Under the pieces are notes generated by a model. That model was given only the letters and a program-made list of their open reading frames with translations, did not search any database and was not told the origin of the DNA. The translations under genes and the position numbers were made by a program. 64,000 nucleotides of DNA from Pogonophryne albipinna (lineage: Eukaryota; Chordata; Actinopteri; Perciformes; Artedidraconidae): contig CM053243.1 in the NCBI GenBank assembly GCA_028583405.1, forward strand, positions 31,237,632 to 31,301,631. The letters run 5' to 3'. Of the stretch, positions 22,201 to 25,200 are shown piece by piece. Numbering within the stretch: the first letter of the stretch is position 1; the number at the start of each line of letters is the position of its first letter.

Positions 22201-25200
22201 TGAGTAGCTGATTGCAGACCCTGCAGCAGGAAACACGACAGTGAGCAATTGTAAAATGGCATTGTGCTGTTAAGCAAAACTGAATGCAATTATTCCCACC
22301 AGTTTGAATCAAGGTAACAACATTGTGTGTGTGGACCTACCCAGGCTGTAGAAACTAAGGGCGCCATAATCGAAGAAGAAGCAGATGTGGCGTGCCCGCT
22401 CCGACATGCTGCTGAAGGTGTGAGCACAGCTGGACGCCAGTGGGTAAATGCAACAGGAGAGCAGGAAGATGACCAGAGGCCAGGTGAAGAAGTCCTGCCA
22501 CGCTGTCAGCATCAGCGCCACAGTCCCTGTCTTCCATAGGAAATACCTGCGGGGAGAAACAAATAACACCGAGATGATTATATTGGATGGTGCATTTCTG
22601 AGTTTTTGTGTGTGTCTTTATCGCAATTCTGTCATTTAAAATCACTTTTGGAAACCTTATCATCATATCCAACGTCAAGCATTTGGCAGCAATACAAAAA
22701 GGACAAGCGAATGAATATCTAAACATGACTGATATAAAAAAGAAAACACACAAACCACACCAAGTGAATGGGGCTATAGTTTGCCTTGTGTGTCTATTTC
22801 CACACGTCTCATTAACAAATCAACATTATTTGTGCGTTTCCCCGTCACTGAGCAGTTAACTAATTGAGACAACTCATATGAAAGCCTCGAGCTCAGATCT
22901 GCTCATTAGTGGCTTGCCTGTAGGTACACCGAGCCCCAAGACACAAACAAACACCCATGTGACCTCAGCATATGCTCAACAACCCTACACACCAGACACA
23001 CTGACAAACGCACACACATCCACACACTTTCTCCGTCAACCATACAGTCAAAGCAACTAATCTCAGCAGGAGGAAGTTCAGCAGGGCTCATGGGAGCAGT
23101 AACCTCAGTAGTACATCAGGAGACCTACTCTACATAAACACACAGACATGCACAATGAAATAATTGCCTGAGTTAAATCATGTATTTTACTTTCAATCTT
23201 GTCAAAAAGAGAGGAGATGCTAAGCTGAGGGAGGAAGCTGAGTAGCTGACGTGTTGCTTTAATGGAGCTGAACTGTGTTGAGATGTGGAGTCGACAGATA
23301 AATAAAATTATCCTCATTCTTGCACTTAATAGCTTCAGCCTCTTTCCTTCTTCTTCCTGCCACTTTTTAACTTCCCTGTCTTCACCTGAAGGGGTTGCAT
23401 CTAAGGTAAAAATTAAGGAGCTGAGAAAACAACTGCAAAGTCTTCTTGACTTTAATACATTTTAGAAGCAGGTATTGTGTAATCTTAGATTAAAATGTAA
23501 CCTTACATAAACGCTAACTGTTTTGTATGGGTAACATGAAAGTTGATCATACAAGGGATACTTTTACATAGCACATAACTAAAGCTGTGAACTAAAGGAA
23601 GTGTGCAATAACTGTGTGTGTGTGTGACTGTATGGAATATTGAATGTTCCTTTTCCAGGAGCTGCACAGAAAATGTCTTTGTTCGATGTGTGCACTTACA
23701 ATAAAGTCAGTCCTTTCTTTTCCAAACAGACATCCACTGTAACTTTCCTTAAACTAGTAAAAACAACGCTTCCTGGAGATGTCTAATTTGATGAGGGGGA
23801 TGAGTAGAATTATGAATTGATTAAAGAATAAATAAACTGTATGAATGCAGCTGTACTATGAGAGTACATTTGCACAACACTAAAGCACTGCAGGAGGTCT
23901 GTTGCACCCACATGTTGCTGGGATGGATGACCTTAAACACTGTCTTCATGTATAATCCTTCTCATATTACTTGAAGCTGTTGCTACCATATCCAATGGCT
24001 TTATTACTGACGTATGTAAAGTCTGCTGCTCTCCCGGAATCCATTTCACTACTTGAAGAGTTCATTTATGTAATAAATATTCGCCGGAATGTATTCACTG
24101 ACATACACTATGAATGCCGAGCAGACAGATACTGTAACTGTGGGTATGAGCTGTTCAAATTAATGGTAGTCTTCAGATAGTAATGTGCCAGAACTGAACT
24201 ATAAAACCACACAATGAGATTCTGCAATACTCTCTGACCTACAAGCTGAACAAGAGTCCTTTCAACACGAAGCAGGACAAAGAAAACTGTTGTGACTCGA
24301 CAGATATGTTAGGTTTAGTTATGTTTTTACTCTAGTTTTGTGTTTTGATCTTGTCACTTCCTGTTTTTATTTTGAAAGTAATCTTTCCTGTCATTCCAGA
24401 TCCCACATTTCCTGCCTTTGTGTGTTTCCCGCCCGTGAGATTGCTTGGCCCTGCCCTGATTGTTTTCACCTGTGCCCATCCCCCTCACCTATATATAGCC
24501 CTGGTGTTTCTTTGTTCCTTTGTCAGTTCGTTATGTTTCATGTCGTGAGCACCTAGGCCTTTTGACTCCTGATACCTACCTTGTGATTTAGACCTTTTGC
24601 CAAGTGAGTTTTTGTGTTGCTGTACAACTTAGTTTTGGCTGTTTAACTACTTTCTATTTTTTGAAAGTACGATTTAGTTTTTGTTATTAAAGAACATTCT
24701 ATTTTTGGACAACTGTCTCCGAGTCCTGCTTTTGGGTCCTGCGTCCTGTGTCTCGGTTCACAACAGTACGAACTGACCAAAATATGGACCCAGCGGATTC
24801 AGAGACAGTGAAGATAGCTCTGCGAGCTCAAGGAACGAGACTACACCAGCATGAGGAGCAGCTGGGCGCCATCAACCTGGGGGTGAGGGACCTGACCGGC
24901 CGTCAGGAAAATGTTCAAGCCTCCGTCAATACTCAGGTGAATCACCTTGCCGAACAGCTGCACCGTGTCCTCGCTCACCTGGAAGCTGGTTCATCCCCTC
25001 AGCCTCCTGCTGTTGCTCACACACCAATTGCTCCAGCTGACCATGCTCCACCGCCTCGTCTGGCATCTCCAGAGCGATTCTCCGGAGATTCCGGTGACTG
25101 TCGCCCTTTCATTGTTCATTGTGATCTCCATTATAAATATAACCCTGCTGCATTCCCCACTGATCACTCTAAAGTGGCCTTCATGGTGAGCCACTTAACG

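Follow-up and report, generated by a model that had tools for sequence, protein, structure and literature searches.

A fish Tf1/sushi-type chromovirus leader that very probably primes reverse transcription with its own RNA: primer and primer-binding site change together across families of one genome

Which RNA primes reverse transcription of the gypsy-type retrotransposon that lies in the window, the 64,000-nt stretch of Pogonophryne albipinna DNA analyzed here? A sequence-only reading of the locus had proposed that the element primes itself, on the grounds that a 10-mer in its 5' long terminal repeat (LTR), placed where the transcript should begin, is perfectly complementary to the primer-binding site (PBS). 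Self-priming in vertebrate Tf1/sushi elements was reportedly treated by Butler et al. in 2001, a work known to us as cited by later papers. In the available parts of three such papers, self-priming is described as common within the Tf1/sushi group and is implicated in vertebrates (PMC10085805, PMC6317226, PMC4600332), which bears out the premise that elements of this type are known to self-prime and means that the mechanism considered here is not new. Our concern was whether it applies to this element, and what the many related families in the same genome can say about it.

The features of the element are collected in Table 1. Pfam matches on its separate pieces follow the Ty3/gypsy order of gag and then protease, reverse transcriptase, RNase H, and integrase, with the matches for rve and RNase H falling below the cut-offs. 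The integrase C-terminus carries a Tf2-1-type SH3 domain (PF24626 SH3_Tf2-1, E 1.2e-15) together with a chromodomain (PF00385, E 2.4e-8), and judged by these domains the element is a Tf1/sushi-type chromovirus. Among the best 120 of 7712 matches to the protease–reverse transcriptase piece, the named homologues come from fishes and frogs, and a search of viral contigs for relatives confirmed none. Both gag and pol of the window copy are interrupted by stops and frame changes, and the element holds two insertions; it is a broken copy. By coordinates, pol of this broken copy lies in the −1 frame relative to gag, and a scan of positions 25661–25850 for a canonical slippery heptamer found none. The 3' LTR spans 34084–36806, is split by an insert, and also carries GTCAGTTCGT.

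Table 1. Features of the element, in positions of the window
Feature	Position	Strand	Remarks
5' target-site duplication AAAAC	24283–24287	+	5 bp; second copy at 36807–36811
5' LTR, TGTTGTG...CACAACA	24288–24765	+	478 bp
TATATATA box	24490–24497	+	
Self-primer GTCAGTTCGT, putative RNA 5' end	24522–24531	+	exact complement of PBS; matched versions elsewhere
ATTAAA, likely polyadenylation signal	24686–24691	+	suggested by sequence
U5 arm of second duplex, TTGGGTCC	24732–24739	+	pairs with 24786–24793
GT spacer between LTR end and PBS	24766–24767	+	2 nt
PBS, ACGAACTGAC	24768–24777	+	
Probable gag start codon	24784–24786	+	from gag frame; start of most full-length genomic gag matches
gag fragment (Ty3_capsid, Retrotrans_gag)	24784–25410	+	frame ended by in-frame TGA at 25411–25413
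IR arm of second duplex, GGACCCAG	24786–24793	+	overlaps gag start codon by one base
Protease and reverse transcriptase	25674–27394	+	frame break near 26984; RNase H start is a match below Pfam cut-off
LINE frames nested within pol (GDSL-lipase, endonuclease, reverse transcriptase)	27644–32242	+	frame coordinates; element ends approximate
Integrase pieces: H2C2, rve, SH3_Tf2-1, chromodomain	32844–34091	+	rve below Pfam cut-off
Polypurine tract and TAA, 5' of 3' LTR	34066–34083	+	
3' LTR part one (U3 to TATA)	34084–34293	+	210 nt; 100% identity with 5' LTR
Insert at TATA of 3' LTR	34294–36548	.	~2.25 kb; internal repeats; ends approximate
3' LTR part two	36549–36806	+	10-mer at 36573–36582; U5 arm at 36780–36787
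3' target-site duplication AAAAC	36807–36811	+	

Several observations on the state of the copy stand apart from the question of priming. The two LTRs of the window element differ by few substitutions and several indels despite the broken gag and pol, a combination that indicates either that the copy moved when it was already broken or that indels from decay or assembly outnumber substitutions. Within the insert, at window positions 36443–36542, a TA repeat is flanked by two oppositely oriented segments, of 20 and 29 nt, both matching U3 of the LTR (24352–24380). The insert region 34286–36293 contains two long direct repeats, of 603 nt and 290 nt, each ~97% identical.

The complementarity itself is exact. 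The primer segment GTCAGTTCGT is the perfect complement of ACGAACTGAC over exactly 10 nt, and the latter begins two bases past the LTR end CACAACA, after the spacer GT. How often such a match arises by chance was assessed with 20,000 dinucleotide shuffles of the LTR plus leader, the register being defined as 25–45 nt after the TATA start. A complement of at least 10 nt occurred anywhere in the LTR in 33 of the 20,000 shuffles and in register in none, and even a complement of at least 8 nt in register was reached by only 23. The coordinates of the two 10-mers and their perfect complementarity two bases past the 5' LTR, as first noted, are thus confirmed.

The spacing of 32 nt between TATA box and 10-mer holds as well, when counted from the first T of TATATATA at 24490, and this distance recurs in 12 of the 16 leaders of the same family that hold the 10-mer (window included). 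Shorter TATA strings lie 31 nt before the 10-mer in L073 and 28 nt before it in L066, and 25 of the 31 leaders from other families have a TATA 30–31 nt upstream of the primer. The claim that box, start, and site are all in register therefore agrees with the box spacing of most copies but not of all: two family leaders (L070 and L071) and the 3' LTR of the window element have TATATATA only 24 nt before the 10-mer, and with a start ~30 nt from the box, transcription would begin inside the primer. These may be decayed or poor copies, or their start may be set otherwise; in the window's 3' LTR the TA run is longer at the insert, such that a TATA is also available at 30 nt. The three LTRs with the 24-nt spacing (L070, L071, and window 36549–36582) show two different junctions, and the spacing either marks a minor family variant or results from repeated deletion in a CTTTGT/TTCCTTT stretch.

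If the two segments pair, copies elsewhere in the genome ought to retain the match. A DNA search of the window's own genome, in which 40 of 175 candidates were scored, gave 15 rows that reach the PBS, and all of these, together with two family rows from a gag search, make up 17 family leaders; L072, without the primer region, was left out of the primer count (n = 16). The exact pair is kept in 13 of the 16. The remaining three carry one-sided changes, in the primer in L064 and L067 and in the PBS in L063, each at the site's CpG. This looks like what decay after insertion gives, and speaks neither for nor against pairing. Independent mutation of the two 10-mers among family copies, which the sequence-only reading had named as the observation that would tell against it, was seen at this CpG only.

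Other sushi-like families of the genome are more informative. The gag search, with 150 of 1657 candidates scored, retrieved families at 57–69% identity, and from the 133 other-family gag rows we took 31 leaders chosen to spread over the identity classes. In 27 of these, a 10-mer perfectly complementary to the PBS is present in the LTR, and in 29 the PBS is preceded by CA plus two bases. Four matched versions occur, GTCAGTTCGT, GCCAGTTCGT, GTCGGTTCGT, and GTTGGTTCGT, each with its own complement as the PBS; the versions differ at primer positions 2, 3, and 4, and the partner positions of the PBS differ to match. The two 10-mers do, in other words, co-vary among genomic copies, which is what the sequence-only reading had proposed to check. 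The four inexact leaders comprise L097 with one mismatch, L085 with two, and L092 and L098, which are without a primer. L092 has lost most of it, apparently through a deletion between short repeats. In L098, unrelated and perhaps coding DNA stands in the primer's place, with the PBS and U5 arm still there.

Placed on a gag tree that has 21 rows and includes 19 exact pairs, the versions require five changes, equivalent to six position changes (three, one, and two at primer positions 2, 3, and 4, respectively). L092 and L098, having no primer, are left out of this count, and L085 and L097 are absent from the tree. As far as the gag sequences can tell, the tree points to repeated origins of the versions, as opposed to one ancient split. 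Because the tree rows were chosen for exact pairs, the primer and PBS change counts agree by construction, and the covariation evidence proper is the 27 of 31 exact leaders rather than the tree counts. Primer positions 1 and 5–10 (G...GTTCGT) are invariant between versions, and covariation therefore speaks for three positions only.

The same layout is found in elements outside the fish genome. A scan of bacterial and archaeal genomes led to chromovirus-like contigs in metagenome bins, of which 26 were examined. Seven of them (L001, L002, L003, L017, L041, L042, and L051) have an exact complement of 11–13 nt right after an LTR-like CA, and all of these except L003 have a TATA string 18–42 nt upstream. 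L005 has a 9-nt match without a TATA, and no signature was recognized in the other 18, contigs being counted whether or not they hold a leader. Matches of 9–11 nt that fell within coding sequence or at a distance from any LTR end were set aside as chance, as was one of 13 nt in L005, and a few entries close to the starts of contigs were discounted as script artifacts. The primer letters of the bin elements differ from the fish ones, and within one bin, three elements carry AAGGCGAACAA and a fourth carries AAGGTGAACAA, each with the matching PBS. In bin G002 (L017, L041, L042, and L051) there is a second PBS-like copy, GTTCGCCTT (GTTCACCTA in L042), between TATA and primer; it changes along with the primer, which would allow a hairpin between U3 and R.

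RNA folding adds little to either side. The minimum-energy fold of 24522–24790 (269 nt) contains the 10-bp primer:PBS helix, but with ten more bases added, the mean pair probability of the helix is 0.42. The 269-nt leader is mildly more stable than its shuffles (z −1.3; 18 of 200 shuffles fold as well). Across 12 leaders, the mean pair probability of the helix is 0.96–0.98 in five, 0.42 in the window, and at most 0.26 in six. The model is a nested one and cannot represent the crossing helix described below, and folding alone is indecisive as to whether primer and PBS would pair.

These results bear on the simplest alternative, namely that the complementarity is due to chance or to shared ancestry of conserved LTR letters and involves no RNA pairing. 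With seven of ten positions invariant, most of the match could indeed be inherited, and the folding does not contradict such an origin. Yet neither chance nor ancestry readily yields a match in register that none of 20,000 shuffles reproduces, four matched versions that together account for six position changes along the gag tree, or bin elements that share the layout in unrelated letters and show a matched change of their own, from AAGGCGAACAA to AAGGTGAACAA. We consider this alternative exceedingly improbable.

Another possibility is that the primer at this site is a host tRNA, acting through its 3' end or some internal segment, and that the match to the LTR is incidental. The comparison covered 20 different tRNA genes from this genome, taken from 62 matches and labeled by ARAGORN as Thr, Lys, Arg, and Cys only. 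A tRNA-type PBS, starting with TGG and matching a tRNA 3' end, was not found among these: the first TGG starts 20 nt past the 5' LTR, and the best match is 8 of 18 nt, so no sampled gene of the four isotype labels offers the better fit to a fish tRNA 3' end that could have displaced the self-primer. Internal complements do exist, the longest being 7 nt in one tRNA, a length also reached in 104 of 300 shuffles, and the 5-nt complement to CGAAC is the longest match in three of the 20 tRNAs. CGAAC in the PBS complements GTTCG, the core of the primer, which we take to be the letters of the tRNA T-arm consensus; this core is possibly a relic of tRNA priming, or a product of chance. On this limited tRNA set we reject tRNA priming of the window element. 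Priming by tRNA also does not predict that PBS and LTR 10-mer should match, as they do in 27 of the 31 leaders from other families, and it seems to us most unlikely as an explanation of the site. The leader instead appears to supply its own primer.

A second duplex frames the same site. For each leader, the 58-nt stretch ending 12 nt before the PBS was searched against the gag start for complements. In the window, TTGGGTCC in U5 pairs with GGACCCAG, and a comparable U5:IR pair, ending 21–31 nt before the PBS, is present in 47 of 48 leaders (L063 is without one). In any single leader the pair is modest, with 0 to 39 of 400 shuffles as good, and it recurs across the sampled families. On a tree of 20 rows, U5 position 4 changed twice, as did its partner (G-C to A-T), with all rows remaining paired. 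Position 7 shows a matched change (GTTCAT with ATGAAC) in two rows of one clade and a G-U pair in others. At positions 1 and 8, variation is confined to the U5 arm; the pair is lost at position 2 in L092 and at position 8 in one row, and only 8 and 10 of the 20 rows pair at positions 9 and 10, respectively. L102 and L063, in which no arm fits the search pattern, were left out of this position table, L102 having a 7-nt arm. Position by position, the pairing thus delimits a helix of 7–8 bp with two compensated pairs. The complementarity around the PBS exceeds chance, with matched change between primer and PBS and, in two pairs, between U5 and IR.

Since the U5:IR helix crosses the primer:PBS helix, the two together would form a pseudoknot. 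In all sampled sushi-like families, one to three bases of the gag start codon lie within the U5:IR helix. An RNA folded for priming may for this reason be unavailable for gag translation, and vice versa, and it is conceivable, though rather doubtful, that the pseudoknot acts as a switch by which an mRNA in translation becomes a template for reverse transcription. The U5-IR stem of retroviruses joins a stretch of U5 on the 5' side of the PBS to a repeat on its 3' side. The duplex described here resembles that stem in its pairing of U5 with a downstream repeat around the PBS, but differs in crossing a self-primer:PBS helix and in apparently involving no tRNA. No U5:IR duplex was seen in the seven bin elements (106–393 of 400 shuffles as good). 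A third duplex of the Tf1 'pretzel' type, between the sequence after the primer and that before the PBS, did not stand out from shuffled sequence in any of the 12 leaders scored (61 to 499 of 500 shuffles were as good).

Taken as a whole, the evidence argues strongly that the window element has the leader of a vertebrate Tf1/sushi-type chromovirus that very probably primes reverse transcription with its own RNA. We envisage the following course of events. Transcription would start at or near 24522, as the TATA spacing suggests, and the first 10 nt of the RNA would fold back onto the PBS two bases past the LTR, a pairing to which the covariation points. The crossing helix TTGGGTCC:GGACCCAG, for which the covariation is weaker, would frame the PBS at the gag start. 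By analogy with Tf1, RNase H of the element's reverse transcriptase would cut after the tenth base, and the freed 3' end of the primer would be extended into U5. During plus-strand synthesis, the primer would presumably be copied into a new PBS. In retroviruses, tRNA primers are copied during reverse transcription, and copying of the self-primer into the new PBS would help to keep primer and PBS in step.

One could also suppose that the two segments pair for some other purpose, such as dimerization, packaging, or translation control, with priming achieved otherwise. The pairing evidence is silent on what the helix does, and the second duplex, with its overlap of the gag start codon, is the sort of structure that this explanation would accommodate. 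However, the 3' arm of the primer helix lies two bases past the LTR, at the point from which the minus strand must be started, no tRNA-type PBS was seen there, and the same layout is described as priming Tf1 in the available text of PMC7175516. We regard a purpose other than priming as very unlikely, and self-priming as the preferred reading.

The comparison with Tf1 of Schizosaccharomyces pombe is instructive, since there too the RNA 5' end is complementary to a PBS after the 5' LTR. In Tf1, according to the accessible portion of PMC7175516, the first 11 RNA bases pair with the PBS and the RNA is cut between bases 11 and 12, whereas the primer of the window element comprises 10 nt. The Tf1 'pretzel' RNA, as far as the accessible portion of PMC10085805 describes it, likewise has duplexes between PBS-adjacent sequence and the LTR, comparable to U5:IR here; it consists of three duplexes, versus two found in the window element, whose IR arm overlaps the gag start codon. 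For Tj1 of Schizosaccharomyces japonicus, a PBS complementary to the mRNA 5' end is reported and self-priming proposed (PMC4600332, as excerpted), but the host is another one, and a stop codon separates gag and pol in place of the −1 frame of pol in the window element. Also close, though likened on description and not on sequence, are sushi-ichi and the vertebrate Tf1/sushi elements, vertebrate chromoviruses of a group reported, in the excerpts at hand, to self-prime, from which the window copy differs in its broken state and in harboring a LINE and a second insert.

As far as the portions of the literature at hand tell, self-priming in vertebrates has so far been inferred from sequence, and no treatment of a self-priming LTR retrotransposon in zebrafish was found in the open-licence literature. 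Measured against that same literature, neither the covariation among families of one genome nor the helix at the gag start may have been published before. Many sushi-like families in one genome amount to a within-genome test, in which primer and PBS have stayed complementary through two-sided changes and U5:IR partly so. Clear targets for probing are the invariant GTTCGT core and the helix that covers part of the gag start codon, and annotation that seeks only tRNA-type PBS sites will miss elements of this kind.
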